Below are positions 1 to 36,980 of a stretch of 36,980 bases of DNA, one piece after another. Position 1 is the stretch's first letter; each line of letters opens with the position of its first letter. Position numbers and translations under genes: made by a program. This stretch comes from a virus: the IMG/VR virus record IMGVR_UViG_3300050821_002521, positions 1 through 36,980 of that record; one strand, given 5' to 3'. The notes beneath the pieces are model-generated. The model saw only the letters and a list, made by a program, of their open reading frames with translations. It had not been told where the DNA came from and made no database searches.

Positions 1-97
1 TTGTTCCACACATCCACCCATTCCGTCATCTTGGCCAGCACCGCTCCGTGCCCGGTAAACAACTTGGCGAAGTCCCCGGCCATCTCCGTTTCAAGAG
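1..97. repeat. Terminal direct repeat, left copy (circular joint)
   Basis: These 97 bases are identical to the last 97 bases of the window (36884-36980). A coding frame runs without interruption across the joint, so the repeat most likely marks a circular assembly of a circularly permuted or circular genome rather than a packaged terminal repeat. The unit genome is then about 36,883 bp. Confidence 0.95.
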
Positions 98-197
98 ATG
101 TAAGCCGTGCTGAAAGTTCGTTTTGCGCCGCTAGCAGCACCGACTGAGCCTGCTCGATGCGGTCCAGTTTCAGGTTGATTTCTTCGAGAGAAAGCAT
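1..197 (-). CDS. Small coiled-coil protein, 5' part (continues across the joint)
   Basis: The ATG at 197 lies one base past the TAG of the upstream gene. The N-terminal half is a heptad-rich helix (MLSLEEINLKLDRIEQAQ, then an NELSARLTSLETEMA stretch), typical of a short coiled coil. The frame leaves the window at base 1 and continues at the right-hand end to a TGA at 36802. The complete protein is 92 aa with a basic, Lys/Arg-rich C-terminus. No family was recognised. Its position after a small membrane protein in the early leftward cluster suggests an accessory role only. Confidence 0.75.
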   Translation of the reverse strand, partial: MLSLEEINLKLDRIEQAQSVLLAAQNELSARLTSLETEMAGDFAKLFTGHGAVLAKMTEWVDVWN

Positions 198-422
198 CTA
201 GCGCTCTCCAATCCCCAGCACATACCATGCCCACCATCCGAGCAGCACCGCAGCCGCCACAATCAAGCCAAAGAGCCAAGCCAGTTGCTTGCCCGATACT
301 TCGGCTCGGTCGCGCTGGCGTTGCTGTTCGATGGCGGCCCGGTGTTTTGCCTCGCGCTTGTCTTCGCGCTCCAGGTAGGCTAGAAACTCGTCCAGGTCCG
401 GGTTATGGTACTTGGGTTTCAT
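198..422 (-). CDS. Small membrane protein with C-terminal transmembrane helix
   Basis: This 74-aa protein has a charged, helical N-terminal part (YLEREDKREAKHRAAIEQQR) followed by one strong transmembrane segment (about residues 48-69, rich in Leu, Ala, Val and Trp) and a short tail. The ATG at 422 overlaps the stop of the upstream gene as ATGA; a longer reading from 506 is less likely. The topology suggests an inner-membrane anchor with a cytoplasmic coiled domain. No family was recognised; a host-takeover or superinfection-exclusion role is possible but unsupported. Confidence 0.75.
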   Translation of the reverse strand: MKPKYHNPDLDEFLAYLEREDKREAKHRAAIEQQRQRDRAEVSGKQLAWLFGLIVAAAVLLGWWAWYVLGIGER

Positions 423-679
423 GGACGTGGCTCCATAATTTTCTGGTAACGTTCGCCAGCAGCCATCGCTGCAACTTTCCCTTGCAAATGCTGAATCGTT
501 GCCCACTTGCCGTGCGGGAAAAGCAATTCGTCATCGTCGGACTGCTTGAGAACTTCAATAAACCATGCAACCCACTGCGGTTCAGTCCACTCCTGAAACC
601 ATTCGTAGCCGCGCGAACTAGCAAAGGACTTCAGCGCGTGCCAGCTTAGAAGTTCTCGCATGTTAATTGAATCGCTCAT
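419..679 (-). CDS. Hypothetical early protein (86 aa)
   Basis: The protein is Trp-rich and helical (WFQEWTEPQWVAWFIEVLKQ) with an acidic DDDE stretch. A strong GGAGGGGG ribosome-binding site lies upstream of the ATG at 679. The stop overlaps the next gene as ATGA, so the two are probably translationally coupled. No family was recognised. It belongs to the early leftward cluster downstream of the ERF gene. Confidence 0.75.
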   Translation of the reverse strand: MSDSINMRELLSWHALKSFASSRGYEWFQEWTEPQWVAWFIEVLKQSDDDELLFPHGKWATIQHLQGKVAAMAAGERYQKIMEPRP

Positions 680-699
680 CCCCGCTCACCCCCTCCTTG

Positions 700-1026
700 C
701 TAGGCGTCTGACAACGAAGGCTTTTCTGCATCGTCCTCGCTCAGCCGCTTAATGCTGTCGTCCGGCAACTGCTGCAACAGCCGGAGCATGATGCTGTACG
801 CCACGTTCGGGTCCACGCAGATAGTCACGTAGCGGTCAAACTCCTTGTGCCAGTCGGCGTAGGCTTCGGCATTGTGCAAGTCCTTGACCAGCCGCGTCTT
901 GCCTTCTTTGTTGGCCTTCCGCCGCTGAGCCTCGAGTCGCGGGAGCACAAGTTTTGCGGCTTCCGCCCCGCGGCCCTTGCTGATCAGGAACTGGCAGTGG
1001 GCCAAGCACTCCTCAACGTTAGGCAC
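700..1026 (-). CDS. Hypothetical early protein (108 aa)
   Basis: The likely start is GTG at 1026, with AGGGA seven bases upstream and an 8-base overlap with the end of the zinc-ribbon gene before it. A longer frame opens at 1134, but that part lies fully over the upstream gene. The protein is helical and basic in the middle (PRLEAQRRKANKEGKTR), with an acidic C-terminus. Possible metal ligands are sparse (Cys6, Cys10). No family was recognised. It lies just downstream of the ERF recombination gene, so a replication or recombination accessory role is possible. Confidence 0.7.
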   Translation of the reverse strand: MPNVEECLAHCQFLISKGRGAEAAKLVLPRLEAQRRKANKEGKTRLVKDLHNAEAYADWHKEFDRYVTICVDPNVAYSIMLRLLQQLPDDSIKRLSEDDAEKPSLSDA

Positions 1027-1255
1027 TGACGTTCCCTGACGTGAAATATGGCTTAACGACGCATCGCAGTTGCCACCGTTGGCCGTCCGGCTTCCAAGGT
1101 ATGTAGGTCGCCCCGCATCCTTCCGGGCAGCCAAAAGGCTTCATGCCGTCCTTCTTGAACAGGCCAAGCTGGCCCTCGGCTCCGCAACCTTCACAGACAA
1201 AGTTCCACACCGTCCTGTCTTTTGTTTCGCGTAGTACTCGACTGGCCTTTGGCAT
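1019..1255 (-). CDS. Small zinc-ribbon protein
   Basis: This 78-aa protein has two cysteine pairs, CEGCG and CPEGCG, spaced about 20 residues apart as in a zinc ribbon, on a Lys/Trp-rich background. Its ATG overlaps the ERF stop codon as TAATG, so it is coupled to the recombination gene. Zinc ribbons of this size often bind DNA or act as adaptors. The specific partner is unknown. A role beside ERF in single-strand annealing is an inference from position only. Confidence 0.75.
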   Translation of the reverse strand: MPKASRVLRETKDRTVWNFVCEGCGAEGQLGLFKKDGMKPFGCPEGCGATYIPWKPDGQRWQLRCVVKPYFTSGNVSA

Positions 1256-2079
1256 TATGGTGCGCTCTGAAGCTTCTTGGTCGGCACGCCGCAGGCTTCG
1301 AGGTCTACCAGCAGCATGTCGATGTTGTCCGGCCCGCTGGTTGGCACAAACATGCCATCCCCGTTGCCCTTCAGGTACTTCTTGAGCAGTGAGCGAAGCC
1401 CCTCAGCCGCCACTTCGTTCAGCCCGGCACCGAATTCCTTCAGGTTTAGAAACACGGCCCGATGGCCGTTGAACTTGTCGGGTGTCGTCCAGAATAGCGT
1501 TGTTTGCACTTTAGGGGCTTTCTCGGCGGCTTTCTCCTTGAGCTTGGAGATTTTATCCTTGGCTACGTCCTGAGCCGCTGTAGCCTTGTCTACGCTGGTA
1601 TCTGCTTCCGGGTCGGATTCGTCAGGAATCAGGAAGGCGTGCCGAAGGCCGTACTTCAAAGCTCCGGTCATGGCTTTGTACACTGCCTTGTCGCCCTTGT
1701 CAGTTCCCGTACCATAGCTGTGGAGCACGATCGGCGGGCAATCCGAATCGCCATCATGGAAACTGAACTCCATCTTCACGTCCACGGCCTGCATGTGGCC
1801 CTCTTTGGCTGGAATCTCGTAGTTACGTATCTCGATCACGTCAGCCACGAGGTAGACGTTCCTTACGGACAAGGCTTTGCGCACGATCCAAGCTACGTCC
1901 GCGGCCTTAACGTAGTTGTATTTCTGGAAGTCGTTCCGGCCACGCTTGTCCACGTTGTCGATTTCGTCCACAATCTCTGCCAGCTTTTGCACCAGAGATT
2001 TCGGCATAACTTGGATAATGGCTCCCGGTGTTCCAAAGTCAGGCACCGTTCCATTAGGCTTGCTCACTTGTTCGCTCAT
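1255..2079 (-). CDS. erf: ERF-family single-strand annealing recombinase
   Basis: ERF-family proteins bind single-stranded DNA, form rings and anneal complementary strands. In P22 the Erf protein circularises the infecting genome. The 274-aa product shows the family's core: an N-terminal helical region with the basic DFQKYNYVKAADVA block, then the GTGTDKGDKAVYKAMTGALK signature and a YGLRHAFLIP end. The C-terminal third is a Lys/Ala-rich linker plus a small domain. It lies in the early leftward cluster and probably works with the RusA-like resolvase at 33.5 kb. The start at 2079 overlaps the upstream stop as ATGA. Confidence 0.92.
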   Translation of the reverse strand: MSEQVSKPNGTVPDFGTPGAIIQVMPKSLVQKLAEIVDEIDNVDKRGRNDFQKYNYVKAADVAWIVRKALSVRNVYLVADVIEIRNYEIPAKEGHMQAVDVKMEFSFHDGDSDCPPIVLHSYGTGTDKGDKAVYKAMTGALKYGLRHAFLIPDESDPEADTSVDKATAAQDVAKDKISKLKEKAAEKAPKVQTTLFWTTPDKFNGHRAVFLNLKEFGAGLNEVAAEGLRSLLKKYLKGNGDGMFVPTSGPDNIDMLLVDLEACGVPTKKLQSAP

Positions 2080-2270
2080 AGTCCCTCGTATTTCGCTCTG
2101 TCTCGTGCTGCGTCAATCCGGCTGGCCATCCAGTCGCTTGCTTCCGTGTCCATCCTGTCGCCCAACATCACTCGCTCATCGGGCATCAATTCCCAATATT
2201 CCTTATCGAACATTTCAAGGGACAGCGAGGCGTAACGCTCGTTCCACCACTCCTTGTAATCACTTGGCAT
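2076..2270 (-). CDS. Hypothetical early protein (64 aa)
   Basis: A small acidic protein rich in Trp, Tyr and Met (DYKEWWNERYASLSLEMF). The start overlaps the previous gene by 11 bases and the stop overlaps the ERF start as ATGA. No family was recognised. It may be an ERF-coupled accessory protein, judged only from the tight coupling. Confidence 0.7.
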   Translation of the reverse strand: MPSDYKEWWNERYASLSLEMFDKEYWELMPDERVMLGDRMDTEASDWMASRIDAARDRAKYEGL

Positions 2271-2490
2271 TGAGTTTCTTTCCGCATCTCATACAAAACG
2301 TTTCCATGCCTGGCTCCCTGTCGGCGTGCTCGCAAGCATCCTGGCTCGCCTCGCGCAGCAAGTCGGACATCTTCAGCCAGAACTTTTTTACATCGCCCAG
2401 CGTCATGGCCGGAGAATCATTCGACGTCGGAAACTCACGCACAAGAAGCGCCTGCAAGCGGCAATCCAGCTGGTTGCGAGTCAGGCTCAC
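2260..2490 (-). CDS. Small protein with C-terminal CxxC motif
   Basis: This 76-aa protein is helical (KKFWLKMSDLLREASQDACE) with a C-terminal CMRCGKKL motif that, together with an upstream Cys and His, could hold zinc. The ATG overlaps the upstream stop as ATGA. It is one of about ten small Cys-pair proteins in this genome. No family was recognised. Confidence 0.7.
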   Translation of the reverse strand: MSLTRNQLDCRLQALLVREFPTSNDSPAMTLGDVKKFWLKMSDLLREASQDACEHADREPGMETFCMRCGKKLNAK

Positions 2491-2684
2491 TGGCGCACCA
2501 ATCCGTATTTGGACGGGTCTTCGCCAATCTGTTCCAGCGCCGAGACTAACTTGCCGGAGATTGTCTTTGTGTCATAACCAGCTACCATGTAAAAATTAGT
2601 GACGGCTCCGGCGATGGCAGCGGCCTCGCGCTTAGTGAGCACCAAGACGACGGCTTTTTGACCAACAGCGAATCTTCTGCTCAT
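2487..2684 (-). CDS. Hypothetical early protein (65 aa)
   Basis: The start is ATG at 2684, with a GAGGGAG ribosome-binding site seven bases upstream and a TAATG overlap with the upstream stop. A reading from 2780 would lie entirely on the upstream gene. The product has a short beta-like N-terminus (KAVVLVLTKRE) and a helical C-terminal half. No cysteine motif or membrane segment is visible. Function unknown. Confidence 0.7.
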   Translation of the reverse strand: MSRRFAVGQKAVVLVLTKREAAAIAGAVTNFYMVAGYDTKTISGKLVSALEQIGEDPSKYGLVRQ

Positions 2685-2872
2685 TATCGCTCCCTCACCA
2701 AACTTCTCGGAACCAACCCAAGAGCCAGGAGTCCCGCCAAGCACAAAGCCTTGGCCTTTCTGCGCTGGTCGGCTTCCCAAGCCCGCTCCAGCAAGTCCTG
2801 AAACTCGTCGTCTGGCTCTGGCTCGGCTGTCATGTCGGGATCTTCGTAGTCTCCTGCACAGTTGCTACACAT
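2684..2872 (-). CDS. Small CxxC protein with hydrophobic C-terminal segment
   Basis: A 62-aa protein starting MCSNCAGDYED, so the CxxC pair is at the very N-terminus, followed by an acidic helix and a Leu/Ala-rich segment (ALCLAGLLALGLV) that is short for a membrane span. The ATG overlaps the upstream stop by 8 bases. No family was recognised. Confidence 0.65.
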   Translation of the reverse strand: MCSNCAGDYEDPDMTAEPEPDDEFQDLLERAWEADQRRKAKALCLAGLLALGLVPRSLVRER

Positions 2873-3026
2873 CGGCAGGCCCGTAGTCTTCGAGTTTCTC
2901 TTCGATGGCCTGCTGGATTACCTGGGCCAGTTCCTTGACGCGCTCTTCGGTCAGCCCATGCTCAATGTCGGACAGGAAGTAGCGCGCCAGTTCGTCGCAC
3001 TTCTGGTCGTAGGATATTTCTCTCAT
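2865..3026 (-). CDS. Very small early protein (53 aa)
   Basis: A 53-aa open frame starting with ATG at 3026, which overlaps the stop of the first leftward gene as ATGA. It is entirely helical and acidic (RVKELAQVIQQAIEEKLED). It is too short for most gene callers, but the coupling and amphipathic helix pattern support it. Function unknown. Confidence 0.65.
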   Translation of the reverse strand: MREISYDQKCDELARYFLSDIEHGLTEERVKELAQVIQQAIEEKLEDYGPADV

Positions 3027-3178
3027 GCCGCCTTCCCTTCCTTGCGCAATCGCGCCAGTTCCCGCCGCCGCTCGACCAGTTCCCGTATGGCTTCGCTCAC
3101 CGCCTGAATGTCTCCGCTGCCGTTGAAGAAGCTGGCTGCCAGTTCGTCAATTCTGTTGCGCTCTTCGCGTGTCAACAT
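3023..3178 (-). CDS. First gene of the leftward early operon (51 aa)
   Basis: This 51-aa frame opens with ATG at 3178, with GAGG six bases upstream and the leftward promoter about 20 bases upstream. The product is a charged helix (NRIDELAASFFNG, then RELVERRRELARLRKEGK), compatible with a small DNA- or protein-binding factor. As the first gene expressed from the leftward early promoter it could be a regulator, but no helix-turn-helix is evident. Its stop overlaps the next start as ATGA. Confidence 0.65.
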   Translation of the reverse strand: MLTREERNRIDELAASFFNGSGDIQAVSEAIRELVERRRELARLRKEGKAA

Positions 3179-3193
3179 TGGTTGCCTCACAAC

Positions 3194-3221
3194 TTGAACA
3201 ATACGCTCATTTGCGTAGAAT
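3194..3221 (+). promoter_or_regulatory. Rightward promoter for the HTH-methyltransferase operon
   Basis: A -35 element TTGAAC (3194-3199), a 16-base spacer and a -10 element TAGAAT (3216-3221, five of six consensus bases). It points at the 58-aa helix-turn-helix gene 70 bases further on. Its -35 overlaps the -10 of the leftward promoter and its -10 overlaps the leftward -35. Confidence 0.5.
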
Positions 3222-3225
3222 GCAA
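3198..3225 (-). promoter_or_regulatory. Leftward early promoter
   Basis: Read on the minus strand: -35 TTGCAT (3225-3220), 16-base spacer, -10 TATTGT (3203-3198). The first leftward ATG is at 3178, giving a leader of about 13 bases that carries the GAGG ribosome-binding site. It is antiparallel to and interlocked with the rightward promoter, so both cannot be occupied at once. Confidence 0.5.
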
Positions 3226-3254
3226 GAGAAAAAAAGTCCTAGTACTAAAATAAT

Positions 3255-3269
3255 CTTGCAATCCGCGTA
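3255..3269 (+). promoter_or_regulatory. Third operator half-site
   Basis: CTTGCAATCCGCGTA matches the half-site CTTGCATTCTACGCA of the dyad at 3193-3226 at 11 of 15 positions. It lies 21 bases before the start of the helix-turn-helix gene, where binding could block its expression. Confidence 0.4.
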
Positions 3270-3290
3270 TCGTGGTAGTAGGGTAACAGC

Positions 3291-3467
3291 ATGGACGTTA
3301 TCAGGGAACTGGAAAAGCAGGTGCGCAAGGCGGGCAGCCAGAAAGAGGCCGCCGAGGCTTTGGGCATCTCTGCGCAGTACCTCAACGATCTTCTGCAAGG
3401 ACGCCGTGGGGCCAGCGACAACGTGCTGGAAAAGCTCGGTTTAAAGAGGATTGTGGTGCGGGCATGA
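3291..3467 (+). CDS. Cro/XRE-type helix-turn-helix protein
   Basis: A 58-aa protein with a classic short helix-turn-helix: residues 16-23 (SQKEAAEA), turn at Leu-Gly-Ile-Ser, recognition helix from AQYLNDLLQGRRG. This matches the small single-domain regulators of the Cro/XRE group that bind as dimers. It is the first gene rightward of the control region and overlaps the cytosine methyltransferase start as ATGA, so the two are coupled. It probably controls the promoters at 3193-3226. Whether it acts as a Cro-like or repressor-like protein cannot be told. No full-length CI-type repressor is seen. Confidence 0.8.
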   Translation: MDVIRELEKQVRKAGSQKEAAEALGISAQYLNDLLQGRRGASDNVLEKLGLKRIVVRA

Positions 3468-4279
3468 GACTTCTAGACCTATTCTGCGGGCGGTGGGGCT
3501 GGTCGAGGGCGTTTGCTGCGAGAGGGTGGGAATGTGTAGGCGTGGATTGGAATGCGCCTTCAGAAATCCCTGAACGTTGTAAGTTCCTGCTGCTGAATGT
3601 TTTGTTGATTGATTTAGCTTACGTCAAAAATATGCACTTCGATTTTATCGTCTGTTCAAGTCCCTGCGAGGAATTCTCAGTTTGGGGAATGAAGCACTTC
3701 CATCCGAACCCTAAATACCCAGAGATGGGCATAAAGCTGTTCAACCACTCCCGCGCTATTCTTGAGGCTTCTGGCGTGCCCTATGTAATGGAGAACGTCA
3801 AACCGGCTCAGAAGTTTGTCGGCCAGGCGGATTCTCGGTGCGGCTCTTTCTATTTGTGGGGAAACGCAATCCCGCCGATTATGCCTCAAGGAATCCGCAA
3901 GGGAGCCACACAGATGCGTAGAGACGGCCGGTACAAGCGGCATGGCGGGGTTGATGAGCAGATGTACAAAGCCAAGGACGTGCGAGCCGCAAATCTGGCC
4001 ACGATCCCACCCGAGCTAGCCAGCTGCGTAGCCGACTATGCCGAGCGGCTGCTGGAGCAAAAAAGCGGTTGGCGTAAAATAAGCAAGGCCGCAACCCTAA
4101 CAGCGAGTCACGGCCACGCTTGGACAGGCGTCAGGAACAGCCCCGAGCTTATGCCTGTTTTGGCTGCTCCGCAAGGGGCTTCACCGGCTCGATTGGCCCA
4201 TGCGGCCGGACGCGGAACGCCTCGCCACACGCCTCGCAGTGGTAGTTGGTCCCACGCTCGAACGGGCCTTCCAGCTTGA
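3464..4279 (+). CDS. Phage cytosine-5 DNA methyltransferase (minimal form)
   Basis: C5 methyltransferases transfer a methyl group from S-adenosylmethionine to cytosine C5, here probably to protect phage DNA from host restriction. Motif I is LDLFCGRWGW (residues 4-13), the catalytic Cys is C68 in SSPCEEFS (motif IV), and the motif VI ENV is at 110-112. A motif X-like IPPELASCVADYAERL closes the fold at 181-196. The target-recognition region is very short, as in other small phage enzymes. The last 44 residues (from about 228) are low-complexity and lie antisense to the 51-aa zinc-ribbon gene, so they may be a non-essential run-on. Coupled to the upstream HTH gene. Confidence 0.88.
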   Translation: MRLLDLFCGRWGWSRAFAARGWECVGVDWNAPSEIPERCKFLLLNVLLIDLAYVKNMHFDFIVCSSPCEEFSVWGMKHFHPNPKYPEMGIKLFNHSRAILEASGVPYVMENVKPAQKFVGQADSRCGSFYLWGNAIPPIMPQGIRKGATQMRRDGRYKRHGGVDEQMYKAKDVRAANLATIPPELASCVADYAERLLEQKSGWRKISKAATLTASHGHAWTGVRNSPELMPVLAAPQGASPARLAHAAGRGTPRHTPRSGSWSHARTGLPA

Positions 4280-4304
4280 CTATCCGAGGGTGCTTGCAGG
4301 GCAT
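4149..4304 (-). CDS. Small zinc-ribbon protein, last gene of the leftward series
   Basis: A 51-aa frame with GGAGG six bases before the ATG at 4304. Metal ligands are Cys3 and His5 near the start and the YHCEACGEAF block (Cys23, Cys26), followed by a Pro-rich tail. It overlaps the 3' end of the rightward methyltransferase gene by 131 bases tail to tail. The ribosome-binding site and CxxC pattern support it as real. Confidence 0.65.
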   Translation of the reverse strand: MPCKHPRIVKLEGPFERGTNYHCEACGEAFRVRPHGPIEPVKPLAEQPKQA

Positions 4305-4394
4305 AGTTTGCCTCCAGAGAAAGTAAGGGGCGGCGCCAGCGCGGTTTTGGAGCTGGCAGGAGGGTTGACGAGGGATGGTTCCCGCCCCGGCCCG

Positions 4395-4847
4395 TTAGCT
4401 GATCTGGGTTACAGCAAAGCCTGTCGCCGGCGTCCCTGTGGCGCCCTGAGCGAGCGTAACGGTGGTGTCCTGGCTGATCTTCACGCCATTCGAGTTGATG
4501 CCGGTAATGGTCAGCGTGAAGTTGGCCGCGGTATCCGTTGCCGAGGTGCCTACCGCAACATTCAGCCCGGTAGCGTCCGCGGTCAAGGTCACCAGCGGAT
4601 CGCTGGCTGTCCATACGGGTATGGCTCCCGGGGCCAGCAACCCACCTGCCCGCACGGTTACAGCTGAAAATGTTCCTACCTGTCCTGCTACGATCGAATT
4701 GTTCGTTGGCATACCATTTTCTCCTGTTTGTCTAACTTGGAATCCTTCTGCTGCTGGTGGTTCCAAAGCCGTTGCGATGCGCTCGAGAGCATTCGCGATT
4801 CTTCCGAGGTCATAGTCTGCGAGCTTGTCCCACTTGTCGTCGCTCAT
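4395..4847 (-). CDS. Ig-like or beta-rich structural protein (150 aa)
   Basis: The first 30 residues form a helix (GRIANALERIATALEPPA). From about residue 45 the protein is Thr/Val/Ala-rich with alternating beta strands, resembling a bacterial Ig-like domain (LVTLTADATGLNVAVG, NFTLTITGINSNGV). Such domains often decorate phage heads or tails. Position after the lysis genes is unusual for a head protein. An internal start at MPTNNSIVAG (residue 46) would give the beta domain alone. The 90 bases between its stop and the next gene hold nothing recognisable. Confidence 0.65.
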   Translation of the reverse strand: MSDDKWDKLADYDLGRIANALERIATALEPPAAEGFQVRQTGENGMPTNNSIVAGQVGTFSAVTVRAGGLLAPGAIPVWTASDPLVTLTADATGLNVAVGTSATDTAANFTLTITGINSNGVKISQDTTVTLAQGATGTPATGFAVTQIS

Positions 4848-4877
4848 GGCGCAAAGTCTAGCACGTGCGTCAAGCGG

Positions 4878-5042
4878 TCAGAAGTGCCGGAATCCGCCTA
4901 GCAGATAGATCACCAGGCAAATCAGCAGGATGGTCCCCAGCCCGATGCTTCCGCCGCGCCCCCAGCTGCCATTGTTATTGGAGTCATACCAGCCGCCAAA
5001 CCCGCCAAACACAAGAATCAAGATGATGATCAAAAGCAGCAT
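4878..5042 (-). CDS. DUF3309-like small two-helix membrane protein
   Basis: A 54-aa frame, ATG at 5042. A first hydrophobic helix (MLLLIIILILVFGGFGG), a short Asn/Gly/Trp loop (residues 18-31) and a second helix (GLGTILLICLVIYLLGGF) match the layout of the tiny DUF3309 membrane proteins common in proteobacteria. In this lysis block it could be a holin or antiholin component. That role is inference from location. Confidence 0.65.
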   Translation of the reverse strand: MLLLIIILILVFGGFGGWYDSNNNGSWGRGGSIGLGTILLICLVIYLLGGFRHF

Positions 5043-5085
5043 GGATCCATCTTCTCTCCGGGCTGGGAAGGGTGTCTGTTCAAAA

Positions 5086-5325
5086 CTACACTTTGGGCAG
5101 CTGATCCTCCAGCGGGATCTTGTTCAAGTCAATGGGAAGCCCTGTTTCCGCGTTGTACGCTGCCAAGGCGTTGGTCAGGATCTTCTGGAAGGCTTGCTCG
5201 ATGGCGATCGGCACGCCTAGTTGCGGGATGGCCGATAGAGCGCCAAGGACCAGATTGATGATGGTCAGTATGTTTTGGAGTTTCGAGCCTGCCGGGGCAG
5301 GGCTTGGAATCGGAGGTGTGCTCAT
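5086..5325 (-). CDS. Small hydrophobic protein of the lysis block (79 aa)
   Basis: A Pro-rich start (STPPIPSPAPAG) is followed by one hydrophobic helix (LQNILTIINLVLGALSAIPQLGVPIAI) that could span a membrane, then a polar helix. The ATG overlaps the stop of the lipoprotein gene as ATGA. It may be a second holin-type protein. It has no recognised family. Confidence 0.6.
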   Translation of the reverse strand: MSTPPIPSPAPAGSKLQNILTIINLVLGALSAIPQLGVPIAIEQAFQKILTNALAAYNAETGLPIDLNKIPLEDQLPKV

Positions 5326-5705
5326 AGCTTTCCATTCTTGGCCGCTGTCAGGGCCGTGGTCTTGGTGTTCACGTCAGCCAGAGAAGCGCTAACAAGGTCA
5401 GCCTGGGTTTGTGTGGCTACTCCGTTGAGGGCTGCTTCGTGGTAGGCGATGTAGGCCTTGTCCGCCACGTTGTAGCTGTCGATCAGGTAAGAGAGCGCAT
5501 TGCGCACTGCTGGAGCGATGTTGGAAGGGAATCCAGCGCTGGTGGATAGCTGCTGCTTGGTTGTCTCGATGATGTTGTGCGCAACAATCAGCGAGTCATA
5601 GGCTCCCGAATCGAACGAATTGGCTGAGCCGGGATGGACCGGCCGGGCAGCGCAGCCAGAGAACGCCAGCGCAAGAACGAGTATCAGACTACGGCTTCGT
5701 CGCAA
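5322..5705 (-). CDS. Lipoprotein of the lysis block, outer-spanin-like
   Basis: The start chosen is TTG at 5705, preceded by AGAGG at about six bases. This gives MRRSRSLILVLALAFSGCAA, a lipoprotein signal peptide with lipobox AFSGC, so the mature protein begins at the lipidated Cys. The 127-aa product is helical after the lipobox and lies directly downstream of and slightly overlapping (17 bases) a membrane protein gene, near the endolysin. That arrangement resembles the outer-membrane half of a two-component spanin, though it is longer than typical Rz1 proteins. The longer reading from 5798 would bury the signal peptide. Confidence 0.65.
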   Translation of the reverse strand: MRRSRSLILVLALAFSGCAARPVHPGSANSFDSGAYDSLIVAHNIIETTKQQLSTSAGFPSNIAPAVRNALSYLIDSYNVADKAYIAYHEAALNGVATQTQADLVSASLADVNTKTTALTAAKNGKL

Positions 5706-5991
5706 TGGGCACCTCTTTCGGTACTTCGCGGGGCGGGTTGGGGATCTGGCCTTGCGCTTCCTGGGCGTCGGCCAGCCCGGTAGCTTGCGCTGCGGCAACA
5801 GGTAGCTTTGAGCTGTAGGCGCGGCTGAGATTGGCTCCTAGCGTGTTCAAGAAAGCGAATATGAACCTGTAAAACTGGCTGGAACCTACCTCCGGCGCCG
5901 GCAGAGAGCCGATAAACGCGCTGGCAATGTAGTAGGCGACAAGAGTTGAGATGGTCTGATGGGCCTGCAAAAATGCGATGATGCTGCTCAT
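5689..5991 (-). CDS. Holin-like membrane protein
   Basis: A 100-aa protein with a short N-terminus, a hydrophobic helix (TISTLVAYYIASAFIGSLP) and a second amphipathic aromatic segment (FYRFIFAFLNTLGANLSRAY), then a Pro-rich hydrophilic tail. Size, topology and position immediately after the endolysin (ATGA overlap, 5988-5991) fit a holin. The family assignment is by layout, not by a definite signature. Confidence 0.6.
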   Translation of the reverse strand: MSSIIAFLQAHQTISTLVAYYIASAFIGSLPAPEVGSSQFYRFIFAFLNTLGANLSRAYSSKLPVAAAQATGLADAQEAQGQIPNPPREVPKEVPIATKP

Positions 5992-6452
5992 GCCTGACTC
6001 AATGTGAGGCTATTCCACACAGCTGTCAAGCCTCCTGTCGAGAATAGTTCGCGCATGGCGTCGGTTGGGCTGTCAGGAACCTCCTGGGGGTATAGATGAG
6101 GCTCATCCGGGAACGATCGCCACGCTGCGCCCTCCGCTAGCCCACAGGAAGGGGCTTTAGCGAGTATCTCAGACCATCTGGCATCCTTGCCGTCCCAGTC
6201 GATCATGCCATCGACGTAAGGGGCTACATCCACCGCCAAGCCGAAGTTGTGCATGGAATAGCCACCGCGGGCCTCCGTGACAACCTTCCCAGGCAGAGTC
6301 CTGCCCTGGGCGTACAAAGCATCTTGTTGGGCATAGGTGCGAAGACCTTGCGTGATGGCCAACTGGAACGACAGCATGGTAGAGAGCTGGTCGATGCGCC
6401 GTGCCAGCTCCGGGTGAACGTCGTCTAACCGGCTTTCGCTGTTGGCATCCAT
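5988..6452 (-). CDS. Endolysin, M15 (VanY/LAS-type) peptidase
   Basis: LAS metallopeptidases such as T5 endolysin cut peptide cross-links in peptidoglycan. The zinc-binding and catalytic residues are visible: SMHNFGLAVD gives His68 and Asp75, and DEPH gives catalytic Asp116 and zinc ligand His119. The upstream block FQLAITQGLRTYAQQDALY is the conserved substrate-side helix. At 154 aa it is a single catalytic domain with no cell-wall binding module and no signal peptide, so release needs a holin. The GGAGG ribosome-binding site precedes ATG 6452. Confidence 0.9.
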   Translation of the reverse strand: MDANSESRLDDVHPELARRIDQLSTMLSFQLAITQGLRTYAQQDALYAQGRTLPGKVVTEARGGYSMHNFGLAVDVAPYVDGMIDWDGKDARWSEILAKAPSCGLAEGAAWRSFPDEPHLYPQEVPDSPTDAMRELFSTGGLTAVWNSLTLSQA

Positions 6453-6521
6453 TGTTCACCTCCGGGGCGACCAGCTCCATTCCCAGCCGCGCGGTGTTCG
6501 CTGCCGGGTCCCCAGTTCCAG

Positions 6522-6689
6522 TCACCCCGAAGACTTTTTGCGCTTGGCAAGGGCTTGCTTAATGCTCTTCTTGTGCCGGTATTTCTTTGTCTCGTCCTCG
6601 TACTTGGCCTTGGCCACATCCCAGCAATCCTGGCAAATGTCAGTGTCATGGACGTGTGGCTTGTCCTTGCCGCAAGCCGAGCACTTCAC
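6522..6689 (-). CDS. Small zinc-finger protein (55 aa)
   Basis: A GTG at 6689 overlaps the upstream stop as GTGA. The N-terminal half has two Cys pairs (CSACGKD and CQDC) with a His-x-His between, followed by a highly basic Lys/Arg helix (KKYRHKKSIKQALAKRKK). This is the pattern of a small nucleic-acid-binding treble-clef or zinc ribbon. Its position within the lysis block gives no clue to function. Bases 6453-6521 downstream hold no further gene that can be supported. Confidence 0.7.
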   Translation of the reverse strand: MKCSACGKDKPHVHDTDICQDCWDVAKAKYEDETKKYRHKKSIKQALAKRKKSSG

Positions 6690-6889
6690 GGCTCGACCTC
6701 TAGGAAGGCTATGCTGTACGTCTTCCCGACTGTAAGCTCAACGGCTTTATGCCCTGCGATGAGCATGGACACTTTGCCCTTCTCTTCCGCACTGTCGTGC
6801 CCGGTCAGATACGCATCCATGCCTGACTTCCCTTTGTGCACACAAATCACAAGCACTGTGTCCGGCACCCGTAGTGGCTCGGGCTTCAT
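6686..6889 (-). CDS. Hypothetical protein (67 aa)
   Basis: A small beta-rich protein (TVLVICVHKGKS, VSMLIAGHKAVELTVGKTYS). The ATG overlaps the upstream stop as ATGA and its own stop overlaps the zinc-finger start as GTGA. No family was recognised. Confidence 0.65.
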   Translation of the reverse strand: MKPEPLRVPDTVLVICVHKGKSGMDAYLTGHDSAEEKGKVSMLIAGHKAVELTVGKTYSIAFLEVEP

Positions 6890-7284
6890 GGCTTCTTATT
6901 CCAGATCAATAGTATCCAACCGATAGCCGCAATGACCAGCATAACCACCTTGTCCGCTGTCCAGCGCGATTGTGCCACGCCACCGCTTTTCAGGCTTTCT
7001 ATTTTCTCTTCAATGGCATGGAACTTTGCTTCCGCTTCCGTCCTTTGCAAGAGTGTGGCGGCTTGGTCCTTGAGCTGGCCCCTGAACTCGTTCACGGCAT
7101 CAAACCGCTTCTCGGTGGCCGTTTCGGCCTTGGCTACGGCTTTTTCGCTGGAAGTGAGTGCCAGCCCGGTTTTCTCGTCCATGGCCTTGAAGCGTTCTTC
7201 ATAGCGGCGGTCGCGCTCGTCCATAATCTCCCGCTGGGCAACCAGCTTTGTTTCGAGCACGTCCGCGTGTTCACTATCGGTCAA
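6886..7284 (-). CDS. Coiled-coil protein with C-terminal membrane anchor
   Basis: The 132-aa product is a long charged coiled coil (residues 5-105, for example KAVAKAETATEKRFDAVNEF) ending in a single transmembrane segment (VVMLVIAAIGWILLIW) and a KKP tail. Proteins of this shape occur in phage lysis cassettes. It may be a tail-anchored holin-associated or inner-spanin-like protein, but the coil precedes the membrane segment, opposite to a canonical Rz. Overlaps the upstream gene by 11 bases. Confidence 0.65.
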   Translation of the reverse strand: MTDSEHADVLETKLVAQREIMDERDRRYEERFKAMDEKTGLALTSSEKAVAKAETATEKRFDAVNEFRGQLKDQAATLLQRTEAEAKFHAIEEKIESLKSGGVAQSRWTADKVVMLVIAAIGWILLIWNKKP

Positions 7285-7462
7285 TTCTCCTCCGGGGCTT
7301 CCTCCGCCCGCCCAGCATCAGGATCCCTGTCAGGATCTCGCGGTAGGCCCGCGCATGCGTCTTGCAGAACCTTCGCGTTCTTTCCGTCTCGCAGCCGCAA
7401 GGCACATACAGAACGTGCTTGTTGACTACTTCCTCGCGGAACGCCTTGCAGGTAGTTCTCAT
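7274..7462 (-). CDS. Small Cys-rich basic protein (62 aa)
   Basis: ATG at 7462 overlaps the upstream stop as ATGA; a longer reading to 7588 is discarded because it lies over the upstream gene. The product has YVPCGCETERTRRFCKTHA, a C-x-C ... C-x2-H ligand set suited to zinc, and a strongly basic C-terminus (GGRRKPRRRIDR). A nucleic-acid-binding role is plausible. Confidence 0.65.
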   Translation of the reverse strand: MRTTCKAFREEVVNKHVLYVPCGCETERTRRFCKTHARAYREILTGILMLGGRRKPRRRIDR

Positions 7463-7887
7463 GGGGCTACAGGATGCGCTTCCCGGTAATGGCCCTTGAA
7501 CCACTGGTTGATGCCAAACCCCGCGTCTATGGCCGTGCCGCCGTAGCCGAACATGGAGCAAAAGGCCCTGGGCTGTTCCTTCCAGCAATTCTTGGTGGAC
7601 GCGATGATGGCGAAATTAACGCCATTGCCCCAAGCATAGCTCTGCCACGCCGCTCCGTACATCCCCTGACAGTTTTCGACTCCGCCTTGACGGCAGTGGT
7701 AGAGGCCGCCGGCGTGGATGCCCGCTGCAATGCCCCCGGCAATGAACGCGGTGCGGTAGGGATGGTCGCGGTATTGGTGCTTGAGCCAGTTTATGGGACC
7801 AGCGTGTGCCGCAGGAATCAGCAACGCGCACGTCAGGGGCAAAGTGAACCAGATGGAAAGGGTGAGGGTTAGGAGGAGTTTTCTCAT
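7459..7887 (-). CDS. Secreted small protein with Sec signal peptide
   Basis: The chosen start (ATG 7887) gives MRKLLLTLTLSIWFTLPLT followed by an AHAG cleavage site, a good Sec signal peptide. An in-frame ATG at 7911 is possible but makes the signal worse. The mature part is about 110 aa, rich in Gly, Tyr and Trp, with four cysteines that could form disulfides in the periplasm and a Gly/Ala hydrophobic segment (TAFIAGGIAAGIHAGGLYHC). No family was recognised. It lies between the tail genes and the lysis block. Confidence 0.7.
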   Translation of the reverse strand: MRKLLLTLTLSIWFTLPLTCALLIPAAHAGPINWLKHQYRDHPYRTAFIAGGIAAGIHAGGLYHCRQGGVENCQGMYGAAWQSYAWGNGVNFAIIASTKNCWKEQPRAFCSMFGYGGTAIDAGFGINQWFKGHYREAHPVAP

Positions 7888-7900
7888 TGTATTCCATCCA

Positions 7901-10090
7901 TTATTGAGCATCTGGTGAACAGCTCCAATTCATTACTCCAGTATCCGTGCCAATCAAGTCCTTGACGATCAACGTAGTGGTCGTGGGAATTACTTGCAGG
8001 ACTCCAGTAAATACGCCCGCCCCAGTCCACGACGCAGTACATTTTGGAGCTACACTATAGGTTGTTTGAAATGTGTAGGTCGGGCATACTCCTGCGGCCA
8101 TCGTACAGGTTCCGGCATAGTCTGAGTTCCACTGGGTGATGTTGGCCCCTGTCGTATGCAAGAGCGGGCACGGAGATGAAGCCGCCACCAAAGCTGTGGC
8201 GCACATATTCATGGAAGCCAGATTCCCTGTCTGCCCGACAAGATTGTTCTGCCTGACTACTTCCAAGTTAGTCGGAGCTACGACAATGTGATTTCGTGAC
8301 ACTAGAACGTTTTGGATTGTTTGAAATGTGTCTGTCGGGCCTAGTAAGAATTGGACACCGTTTACGTCAGCGTAGTTGTCTTCTATCTTCAACCCATCTA
8401 CGCCAGTCTGATACTTAATGACAGCACATAATCCGTTGGTTGGAGTCTCGAAAAGGTTGTTAGTTATACGGGTGGAGAAAGACCCTGGTAGTAGAAGAAT
8501 CTCAGGGCAGAAGTAGGCAAAGTTGTTGTCGGTGATTTGCCCTGTAGGACCGCCAACGGTAATGAGCGTCGTCGTGGTGCTGTTGTTTCCTGCACATGCC
8601 CCCGTGAATCCCGGCTGGCCGCACACCGCGAAATTCCCGATGATACGCGGATTGCTGGTGGACGAGGATGCTATATCGACCCACTGCCTCATAACGCCAT
8701 CGTAGTTCTCGACGCGATTCCCCTTGATCAGCACGTCTTCGTTGTCGTTGACAGCATCAATGCCCCAGAAAGTAACAGCAGCATTCCCGAAGTTCAAGAA
8801 GTGGTTGCTTAGGATATACGGAGCAAAGACGTGGCTGTTCACAACGATGCCGTCACTTGCTTTTTGGGCGCAGGTAAACCCGAGGTCTTTGACGGTGAAA
8901 GTTGGCGCATAGAAACCAGCCGCGCCTGACCCGGAAAGCCCAGTGGGGCCGAGGTCCATCACATGCCCTGTTCCCTGATAGCAAAGCCATGCAGTGTCAA
9001 ACCCCGAGCAAGCAAAGAGAGTAACAGCACGCGGAAATACCAGCCCCGAAGTGAAGTTGTAAAACCCTGGGGGGAAACACACGCCAGGAGTGGCAATCTT
9101 GAAGCTGCGAAGCTCTACGGCTTGTGTCTGCCACGGCGAGGTAAGCGAAAGCGTGCCGCTGGTGGTAACACTCGTTCCCGCGCCCGCTGCCGTGTTGTCG
9201 ATGATGGCATCCCCGAACATATTTACAAGTGCGCCGACGTTAGCCCGGACTGTCCCAGCGTTGGCCGCAAGCGTAATCGTGGCTCCATTGATCCAGCCAA
9301 CTCCGCTGACAATAACGTTGTTGGCATCCTGCGTCACGACCGAAACAGAAGGTGCCGTGGAACTGCCTCCCGGCTGGATACCTGCGTTGCCATAGGCTCC
9401 TACTCCGCTGTAGGAAGCGGCTGCGATGCTGTAGATTTCCGCTGGAGAACTGGTTACCGTGACGGACGTGGCTGCGTTCGTGACACCCACGATAGAGCCG
9501 TACATTCTTGAAGCCCCGCCGCCTCCAGCTATCTGCTGGTTGACGATGTTGTAGTTATTCACTGCACTTGAATCCGACACCACGATGGTCTGCCCAGAGG
9601 TGTGGTTATCAATGAAGGAGATAAGCACTGTATCTCCGGGGGAGATTGTCAGCGAACAGCTAAGTGTCGTGATGGCATTGCCTTGAGCAGAGCATTGGCT
9701 ATGAAAGACAATCCCGCCAGTTGAAACATACCCTGCTGCCGTGGCTGCCGTCGCTACCGCCGCAAAAGCTGTGGCATTGTCTGCTAGCGCTGGCGAAGCT
9801 CCCAAGGTTCCAGCATTGATGACTGGGCCTACTGCATCATTTGCGTGAGTCGCCGTAATTACTCCCGTCCCCGTAGTCGTGATCGACCCTCCCGAGCCGA
9901 CGACCTGGGGCGTGGTGACGGGGAAGCCTCCGCCACCGCCTCCAATCTGCGTTTGTGGTGGCTCTGGCGGGATAGCTTCCAGTACTTTAGGCTGTGGTGC
10001 ATTGGGATGGTAAAGCGTGTAGTCGTGCTCGCTGGCTGCTGCCGGGCTGGCCAGCAAAAGGAAGGTGAGCAAAAACTTCTTTGGATTCAT
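7901..10090 (-). CDS. Beta-helix tail spike-like protein with signal peptide
   Basis: The start at ATG 10090 has GGGAGG eight bases upstream. Residues 1-19 (MNPKKFLLTFLLLASPAAA) form a Sec signal peptide with an AAA-type cleavage site. The 729-aa product continues with a short EHDYTLYHP motif shared with the upstream gene, a Pro/Gly linker, Ser/Thr-rich strands, and from about residue 330 a right-handed parallel beta-helix: repeated short strands with Asn ladders (ILSNHFLNF, VLIKGNRVENY, PRIIGNFAVC, QITDNNFAYF, TRITNNLFE, LKIEDNYADV, VLVSRNHIVV). Such folds bind or cut surface polysaccharides. A compact Cys-containing domain ends the protein. Confidence 0.75.
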   Translation of the reverse strand: MNPKKFLLTFLLLASPAAASEHDYTLYHPNAPQPKVLEAIPPEPPQTQIGGGGGGFPVTTPQVVGSGGSITTTGTGVITATHANDAVGPVINAGTLGASPALADNATAFAAVATAATAAGYVSTGGIVFHSQCSAQGNAITTLSCSLTISPGDTVLISFIDNHTSGQTIVVSDSSAVNNYNIVNQQIAGGGGASRMYGSIVGVTNAATSVTVTSSPAEIYSIAAASYSGVGAYGNAGIQPGGSSTAPSVSVVTQDANNVIVSGVGWINGATITLAANAGTVRANVGALVNMFGDAIIDNTAAGAGTSVTTSGTLSLTSPWQTQAVELRSFKIATPGVCFPPGFYNFTSGLVFPRAVTLFACSGFDTAWLCYQGTGHVMDLGPTGLSGSGAAGFYAPTFTVKDLGFTCAQKASDGIVVNSHVFAPYILSNHFLNFGNAAVTFWGIDAVNDNEDVLIKGNRVENYDGVMRQWVDIASSSTSNPRIIGNFAVCGQPGFTGACAGNNSTTTTLITVGGPTGQITDNNFAYFCPEILLLPGSFSTRITNNLFETPTNGLCAVIKYQTGVDGLKIEDNYADVNGVQFLLGPTDTFQTIQNVLVSRNHIVVAPTNLEVVRQNNLVGQTGNLASMNMCATALVAASSPCPLLHTTGANITQWNSDYAGTCTMAAGVCPTYTFQTTYSVAPKCTASWTGAGVFTGVLQVIPTTTTLIVKDLIGTDTGVMNWSCSPDAQ

Positions 10091-35290: not shown

Positions 35291-35575
35291 TCACAGCTTT
35301 CCGTCGAGCGCAATAGCAGCGTTTGCGGTCATCACAGCTTCGCGCAAAAGCCTGACCGCCGCTGTCTGGTCCGCGCAATTTGGCGTGTTATCAACTATGC
35401 ACTGCCCCATTTCCTTTGCTTTGGCGCGGATCGCTTCATACTTCGGCAACTGTTCTGCGCTTGGTGCGTGATAGGTGAAAATATTGTTGATGTCCACTCG
35501 TCTCTCCTTTTCCAGTTCTTTGACCATTTCATTCAGGCCAAACTTGGTGATGCCCGGTGTTAGGAATCTGCTCAT
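35291..35575 (-). CDS. acb2-like: Acb2/Tad1-type cyclic-nucleotide sponge (anti-CBASS)
   Basis: Acb2 proteins are small phage hexamers that sequester the cyclic di- and trinucleotides made by CBASS immunity, and related ones block Thoeris signals. This 94-aa product has the hairpin-domain pattern: [20 protein letters not shown] (32-51), a helix [11 protein letters not shown], then the second helix [20 protein letters not shown] (74-93). The family usually reads FTYHxPxxxQxxxYEAIRxxAKE and EAVMxANAxIA. The start overlaps the methyltransferase stop as ATGA, making an anti-defence pair. ATG at residue 17 is an alternative start. Confidence 0.75.
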
Positions 35576-35820
35576 TTCTCCTTTCCGCTAAAGTCAAGCA
35601 CTTCTTGCGAGAGTCTTTTTGCTGCTATCTCGCAGTACTTTTCTTCTATTTCTATGCCGATGGCGCGGCGGCCTTTGTTCTTTGCCGCTACCAAGGTCGT
35701 GCCACTGCCGGCGAACGGGTCAAGTACCGTTTCATTGGGACGGCTGACCCGCTCTAGCAGCCAGGTCCAGGAGCCGAGTTGGCTTCGGGCACGGATGGTC
35801 CGTATCGCGGTCGGAGTCAT
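35572..35820 (-). CDS. C-terminal part of a frameshifted beta-class DNA methyltransferase
   Basis: From about residue 15 this frame continues the upstream enzyme: [20 protein letters not shown], then the SAM-binding motif [14 protein letters not shown] and the [17 protein letters not shown] end. Residues 1-14 are out of context. Removing one base at about 35779 fuses it with the N-terminal part into a 228-aa enzyme. Confidence 0.8.
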
Positions 35821-36259
35821 AGCAAATCTTACTGTCAGGCCTGAGTTCGTTCACGTAAGGATCACGCCCGTAGTAGAAAATTGGCTGCCAGAGCCGCATT
35901 CCCCACCGGCTGATTGACGTGGAAGCCGGGTAATAGAACACGCCACAATGGTCAGGCTTTGGGTACGAGTGGATGTTCACCTGCCCGGGCGTGAGTACAA
36001 GCCTCGGAACCTCGGACAAAAAACCGATTATTGTTGGCACCACAAACTCCGTGACATATTCTTGCGTGTCCTCGAAAGTTTCGGTATTGTATGCGCCCTT
36101 GCTGTCAGTCCCCGGCGCTAGCCCGCGCTTCATTCCATTGATACCGTAAGGAGGGTCCGTCAGAATCATATCACACTCTATTTCGCTACGGTCAGCGAGC
36201 CAAAGTCCGCAATCTCCGTGGTAGATCGTGATGCCAGCGTGTTCGTAGTACGGTTTCAC
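35732..36259 (-). CDS. N-terminal part of a frameshifted N6-adenine/N4-cytosine methyltransferase
   Basis: The GTG at 36259 overlaps the upstream stop as GTGA. The catalytic motif IV is DPPYGI (residues 35-40), preceded by [20 protein letters not shown]. Conserved sections continue through [18 protein letters not shown] and end at DHPCPKP (residues 154-160). After that the frame yields unrelated sequence ([11 protein letters not shown]). Motif IV before motif I is the beta-class order. As written the enzyme is split; a one-base error or a true mutation would explain it. Predicted target unknown. Confidence 0.8.
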
Positions 36260-36746: not shown

Positions 36747-36904
36747 TTCATCTCCCATCCATCCGCCGCGCTAGCTGCGATGCTGCCCGCCCTGAGGTGT
36801 GTCAAAAACTCCTTGTATCTTTCTTCTGCTTCCTTCTCGCTTTGTGACCAGCCTTTCCCTGCTTGGCCGGGGGCGCTAACAATTTGTTCCACACATCCAC
36901 CCAT
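36743..36904 (-). CDS. Small helical protein (53 aa) starting in the terminal repeat
   Basis: ATG 36904 lies in the right copy of the 97-base repeat. The frame overlaps the end of the coiled-coil gene in another frame and ends with a GTGA overlap to the micro-protein gene. The helix SEKEAEERYKEFLTHLRAGS is well formed. Supported by coupling; function unknown. Confidence 0.5.
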   Translation of the reverse strand: MGGCVEQIVSAPGQAGKGWSQSEKEAEERYKEFLTHLRAGSIAASAADGWEMK

Positions 36905-36980
36905 TCCGTCATCTTGGCCAGCACCGCTCCGTGCCCGGTAAACAACTTGGCGAAGTCCCCGGCCATCTCCGTTTCAAGAG
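36802..36980 (-). CDS. Small coiled-coil protein, 3' part (same gene as at 1-197)
   Basis: This is the continuation of the coiled-coil gene that begins at 197. It runs through WVDVWNKLLAPPAKQG to a TGA at 36802. The last 97 bases of this entry duplicate bases 1-97. In the circular genome it is one gene with 92 codons plus a stop. Confidence 0.75.
   Translation of the reverse strand, partial: LETEMAGDFAKLFTGHGAVLAKMTEWVDVWNKLLAPPAKQGKAGHKARRKQKKDTRSF
36884..36980. repeat. Terminal direct repeat, right copy (circular joint)
   Basis: Exact copy of bases 1-97. See the left copy. It overlaps the start of the 53-aa gene and the middle of the coiled-coil gene, which only reads through when the two ends are joined. 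Confidence 0.95.

Follow-up and report, generated by a model that had tools for sequence, protein, structure and literature searches.

The window, that is, the whole stretch of DNA that was analyzed, is a virus record (IMGVR_UViG_3300050821_002521) that has 36,980 bases and looks complete. Its ends are an exact 97-base repeat (1-97 is identical to 36884-36980), so the record is probably a complete genome, either circular or terminally redundant. The minus strand carries P22-like coat, portal, DNA-ejection, and terminase genes, and the window also encodes a RusA-like resolvase and an Erf-like annealing protein. An N6/N4-type DNA methyltransferase gene at 35572-36259 is seemingly split into overlapping frames (35732-36259 and 35572-35820). 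PADLOC returned weak generic matches only, and a search of window positions 2800-4600 against Rfam gave no match. Only two genes are read rightward from the control region described here, those for a helix-turn-helix (HTH) protein (3291-3467) and a methyltransferase (3464-4279), and this unit converges head-on with the late genes. The features of the region are as follows.

1255..2079, minus strand: Erf-like single-stranded-DNA-annealing protein, in the leftward early block
3023..3190, minus strand: first leftward gene, starting at GTG 3190, or at ATG 3178 with GAGG before it (by inspection of the sequence)
3194..3221, plus strand: rightward promoter proposed earlier, TTGAAC-16-TAGAAT; letters present, not conserved
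3198..3225, minus strand: putative promoter P_L, -35 TTGCAT (3225-3220), 16 bp, -10 TATTGT (3203-3198)
3202..3217, no strand: candidate operator 1, TACGCTCATTTGCGTA, a perfect TACGC-N6-GCGTA in the P_L spacer, touching the -10
3226..3255, no strand: central element, GAGAAAAAAAGTCCTAGTACTAAAATAATC, 30 bp long and reaching exactly from one -35 box to the other
3254..3269, no strand: candidate operator 2, a perfect half GCGTA (3265-3269) plus a weak half, over the P_R -35
3256..3284, plus strand: putative promoter P_R, -35 TTGCAA (3256-3261), 17 bp, -10 TAGGGT (3279-3284)
3291..3467, plus strand: 58-residue HTH_3 (Cro/C1-type) protein
3464..4279, plus strand: cytosine-C5-type DNA methyltransferase, overlapping the HTH stop codon (ATGA)

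The HTH protein matches PF01381 with 31.5 bits, against a gathering cutoff of 23. An AlphaFold2 model (pLDDT of 88.9), with helices at residues 3-14, 17-24, 28-35, and 43-48, depicts a compact multihelix HTH fold. Its fold neighbors in the PDB are HTH regulators, with weak scores (E values of 0.04 to 0.4), and include Aca7, C.BclI, and C.AhdI. The protein lies below the cutoff for the YdaS_toxin family (PF15943; 23.1 versus 30 bits). Only residues 1-202 of the methyltransferase show homology; the final 69 look like frame read-through. Within this tail, on the minus strand, lies a terminator-like hairpin (4115-4087), which may stop late leftward transcription short of P_L.

The closest relative, G001 (IMGVR_UViG_3300021433_000008, also L002), encodes an HTH protein 93% identical to that of the window. 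The sole long DNA similarity between the two records (3200-3471, 83.5%) covers the control region and the HTH gene; some early proteins are 40 to 60% related, and the P22 coat is missing from G001. A scan with the central block only retrieved a further cassette, L066, which has the same block, the dyad, and an HTH gene 56% identical. About 25 further HTH homologues, most of them 30 to 55% identical, came from scans of IMG/VR, GTDB, and phage records. A GTDB search with the HTH alignment also gave one prophage-like Armatimonadetes locus, which was set aside; its gene lies inside an operon, without the dyad. The relatives of the P22-like coat (Xanthomonas phage PBR31, Rhodoferax phage P26218, and two Manatee Spring phages) were likewise dropped as relatives of the control region, as the parts fetched contain no perfect dyad.

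The overlap of the HTH gene with a cytosine methyltransferase gene, together with C.BclI and C.AhdI among the fold neighbors, is what would be expected if the HTH protein were a controller (C protein) of the adjacent enzyme, in the manner of a restriction-modification system. We consider this extremely improbable. Relatives of the methyltransferase at loci L026 and L027 have no such HTH gene directly upstream, and the relatives of the HTH gene are followed by other genes, with no restriction nuclease partner seen; the conserved linkage of HTH gene, methyltransferase, and nuclease by which C proteins are recognized was thus not found. The gene after the HTH gene is an HNH-type endonuclease in G001, and in L066 small genes lead toward the terminase. 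An earlier note had proposed an HTH-methyltransferase operon as one arm of a switch; the pair is not conserved.

The same note had read positions 3193-3269 as two interlocked antiparallel promoters on a shared palindrome, and every string of letters that it cited is in place. CTTG-N5-TACGC-N6-GCGTA-N5-CAAG occupies 3193-3226, centered at 3209.5; the rightward hexamers TTGAAC (3194-3199) and TAGAAT (3216-3221) and the leftward hexamers TTGCAT (3225-3220) and TATTGT (3203-3198) are each separated by 16 bp, and each -35 overlaps the opposite -10 by two bases. Within the window, CTTG-N5-TACGC occurs only at these two arms. As a generic palindrome, however, the 34-bp unit is ordinary and at chance level: it pairs at 11 of 17 positions, and 18 of the 36,947 34-mers in the window pair at least as well. 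A consensus promoter scan of positions 1-8000 found 4 sites against 3.2 expected, and promoter-like pairs were no commoner than in shuffled sequence. Elsewhere in IMG/VR, the whole 34-bp pattern gave chance matches only, inside one unrelated coding sequence. A stem-loop reading of the region was also rejected (single-strand fold z score of -1.96, which is modest). Since the palindrome and the promoter letters are weak alone, the decision rests on the relatives.

In G001, ACCGAG replaces the rightward -35 TTGAAC; in L066, both rightward hexamers are gone and no counterpart of TTGAAC was seen. Conservation between the window and G001 begins at 3200, which places the proposed rightward -35 (3194-3199) outside the conserved stretch. 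The check that the note itself had named, conservation of the half-sites, gave a divided answer: the inner TACGC/GCGTA dyad is kept, as are the right CAAG, which falls in the leftward -35, and the GCGTA half at 3265-3269, and the outer left CTTG is lost in both G001 and L066. Of the two outer arms of the palindrome, the right one belongs to a -35 box and the left one is not conserved; what is conserved as an operator is the inner 16-bp TACGC-N6-GCGTA rather than the 34-bp unit.

We conclude that TTGAAC-16-TAGAAT is probably not the promoter of the HTH gene, although it is the best-scoring rightward promoter of the interval, and that the real rightward promoter is probably P_R at 3256-3284. In all divergent relatives examined, the HTH promoter adjoins the ATG. 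With the promoter at 3194-3221 absent from both closest relatives and P_R conserved, P_L and P_R are not interlocked but stand back to back, an arrangement that does not imply what the note had taken to follow from the overlap, namely that RNA polymerase at one promoter excludes it from the other. It is thus very unlikely that the site acts as an exclusive switch between an HTH-methyltransferase operon and all other genes. What does stand is the more general claim that this is a divergent control region and that it contains a dyad operator for the HTH gene beside it.

Both conserved promoters were recovered in seven loci (the window, G001, L066, L008, L010, L014, and L021). P_L, for which a transcription start near 3191 is expected, lies in the same place in G001 (TTGCAT-16-TATTCT), in L066 (TTGACT-17-TAGTGT), and in the other four. 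Against the sigma-70 consensus, P_L and P_R of the window are weak, with 7 of 12 matches each; P_L is good in L008, L010, L014, and L021 (8.5 to 11 of 12). In all seven loci, P_R spans -35 to -7 relative to the start codon, give or take 2 nucleotides, and a promoter of this type is also present at L019, L023, L040, L049, and L056. Most of the relatives with an intergenic region at this point share the placement, with the -10 ending 6 to 9 nucleotides before the HTH start (6 in the window), so that a leaderless HTH mRNA is predicted. Shuffled sequences reached the P_R score in 0 to 2% of cases for L014, L019, L021, L023, L040, L049, and L056, in 3 to 6% for the window, G001, and L010, and in 22% for L008. 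The -35 boxes are separated by exactly 30 bp in three loci (the window, G001, and L066) and by 12 to 40 bp in the other four.

Operator 1 has 10 of 10 dyad matches in the window, L066, and L008, and 9 of 10 in G001; the dyad lies in the P_L spacer of L008, L010, L014, L021, and L066. The L066 copy, TACGCTTCAAAGCGTA, is independent evidence because the locus had been retrieved without use of the dyad. A systematic scan combined every possible five-base arm (1,024) with each spacer length from 0 to 14, giving 15,360 models, in the upstream regions of eight distant HTH homologues; the window and G001 were left out. TACGC-N6-GCGTA ranked first, with a score of 60; in 60 control draws from these loci, no model scored above 43. 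When a further seven loci were scored later, it ranked 16th, with a score of 25 versus 12, above all of its own controls. A weight matrix built from other loci placed window positions 3202-3217 first among 36,961 positions (20.3 bits versus 11.2 for the next), a ranking that is partly circular because resemblance to the window dyad had guided the choice of training sites.

Near the HTH start, dyads that match at 9 or more of 10 positions reach about 14 times their density elsewhere (p of about 8e-6). This estimate is conservative, since four of the sites counted as far, those of L003, L011, L012, and L013, belong to the spacers of TTGACA-17 promoters that lie 500 to 700 bp upstream and read into the operon that holds the HTH gene. 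The positions of these perfect or near-perfect operators are 5708 in L003, 2489 in L011, 116 in L012, and 2351 in L013; the promoters are strong, and the set includes Virus Rctr41k (KX853513). L025 has four near-identical leftward promoters (354, 2052, 2455, and 2767; TTGACA-17-TACTAT or similar), each with a TACGC-N6-GCGTA-like dyad in its spacer, an arrangement that suggests control of several promoters by one HTH protein. About nine HTH homologues have no such dyad nearby, most of them inside operons, so the operator is not used by every member of the family. A literature search on the dyad arms gave no relevant paper. LfsT (PMC9769523) was dropped as a candidate; it binds AACN(5-8)GTT, and the TACGC/GCGTA matches in that paper are primers.

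The third half-site of the earlier note, CTTGCAATCCGCGTA at 3255-3269, is real, but we identify it as the P_R -35 combined with a weaker operator. A -35 box (TTGCAA or TTGCAT) and an operator half make up both this site and the right arm of the palindrome, which accounts for their resemblance. One half of operator 2 is degenerate, and an alternative register exists at 3262-3277 (TCCGC-N6-TGGTA). The weight-matrix score of operator 2 at 3254-3269 is 10.4 bits in the window; in G001 the site scores 14.7 bits, where it is the second best in the genome. Predicted operator sites are thus present in both P_L and P_R.

The gene layout around these promoters also recurs. The leftward block contains Erf in L010 and G001 and Bet in L014; rightward, the HTH gene is followed by an O-like replication protein in L008, a Holliday junction resolvase in L010, and the terminase in L066. 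The lambda-type arrangement, with divergent promoters, recombination genes leftward, and a cro-like gene first rightward, is found in L008, L010, L014, G001, and L066. There is no room for a cI gene between P_L and P_R, and each of six records has a single HTH_3 match and no S24 domain, although a repressor of some other type may be encoded.

We therefore favor, as the probable reading, a compact early control region of the lambda type without cI, in which the HTH protein would repress, in the manner of Cro, both P_L and the promoter of its own gene. From the operator motif, its place in the promoters, both promoter positions, and the gene layout, as they emerge from comparison of the loci, we infer binding, repression, an order of affinities, a leaderless start, and a timing role. 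The HTH protein would be made from P_R (3256-3284) on a leaderless mRNA and bind TACGC-N6-GCGTA as a dimer, as expected from half-site boxes whose centers are 11 bp apart, one helical turn, and from the compact HTH fold of the model. Binding would be strong at 3202-3217, within the promoter from which the early block and its Erf gene are read, and weaker at 3254-3269, where the site covers the P_R -35. As it accumulates, P_L would be turned off first and its own synthesis limited afterward, an order of repression that would time the early genes. As drawn, the circuit is a negative-feedback timer, and none of the results demonstrates a two-state switch.

The protein could instead be a CI-like maintenance repressor of a nonintegrating temperate phage, with P_R constitutive, P_L off, and the genome carried as a plasmid. 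A leaderless repressor mRNA would resemble those of lambda cI and PY54 cI (PMC4488713), the strongest operator is on P_L, and no second HTH_3 gene accompanies this one in the six records. We regard this as unlikely, however: the protein is Cro-sized and has no cleavable S24 domain, and in the relatives its gene heads a rightward replication or late operon, as cro does. No tyrosine integrase was found in any record searched, and no serine integrase in the window or G001.

In lambda, P_L is directed leftward to recombination genes and P_R rightward to cro, which heads the replication genes; there are three operators per promoter, and cI and P_RM are present. The Cro-like reading of our region shares with this P_L directed to recombination genes, a P_R directed to a Cro-sized HTH gene that heads replication genes in relatives, and predicted operators over both promoters. 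The claim that the region is unlike lambda thus does not hold for layout: the relatives retain the P_L/P_R-cro arrangement, with no cI found. The differences are that cI and P_RM are absent, that one operator of another sequence is predicted per promoter, and that P_L and P_R are back to back, with 12 to 40 bp between the -35 boxes.

Other systems offer parallels as well (Cro behavior is summarized in PMC8630535 and PMC4488713). For PY54 Cro, of the telomere phages, a single 16-bp palindrome suffices, and repressor mRNAs are leaderless (PMC4488713); a 16-bp palindromic site, a single operator at each promoter, and a leaderless mRNA are likewise proposed here. PY54, however, has a cI gene and its Cro leaves its own synthesis unrepressed (PMC4488713), whereas here cI is absent and autorepression is proposed. 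Aca autorepressors are small phage HTH proteins whose inverted repeats, one or two in number, lie within the core promoter (PMC9410906), as proposed here, and Aca7 is a fold neighbor; aca genes, however, follow acr genes in one operon, whereas the present HTH gene comes first in its operon and would control a divergent promoter. In CP-933P, the small HTH repressors YdaS and PaaR2 bind over both divergent promoters and a transcript is leaderless (PMC8630535), which resembles the arrangement predicted here, and the YdaT site, TTGATT-N6-AATCAA (PMC9986795), shares the N6 spacing. The differences from CP-933P are a single repressor here, a repeat consensus of GTTTAGTAA there, and the score of the window protein below the YdaS_toxin cutoff. 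By analogy, the region would work like PY54 Cro, YdaS/PaaR2, YdaT, and Aca, without the cI that defines a full lambda immunity region.

The proposed repressor circuit assigns no role to the central element, AAAAGTCCTAGTACYAAAATA, which is the best conserved part of the cassette. Between the window and G001, 28 of its 30 bases are identical, compared with differences at 26 of the 58 third codon positions of the HTH gene (45%); the 80 bp from 3200, with few base changes, are far better conserved than synonymous sites. About 23 bp are identical in L066, though the HTH proteins share just 56% identity. Across the three phages, with HTH proteins up to 44% different, the element is nearly invariant. 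A literature search with GTCCTAGTAC gave no matching paper, and no Rfam family was found; a block in L019, AAGTCCTAGTA, is located at the end of a coding frame and is probably a chance match. The position between two -35 boxes would suit a shared activator site or an UP element. As a tentative possibility, the element may be one shared site, bound by an additional factor, either an activator of the phage or a protein of the host, that serves both P_L and P_R at once.

The corrected reading prevents a wrong claim of interlocked promoters and describes what appears to be an early control region of the lambda kind, pared down to a single repressor and two promoters that abut. It offers TACGC-N6-GCGTA (often TACGCTNATTNGCGTA) as a candidate operator for these very small phage repressors, a family for which the analysis found no known site, and it brings to light a near-invariant 30-bp element that is directly testable. 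If that element is a shared site, a single activator site would drive both promoters, one small repressor would silence them, and the region would be a two-input control region distinct from that of lambda.
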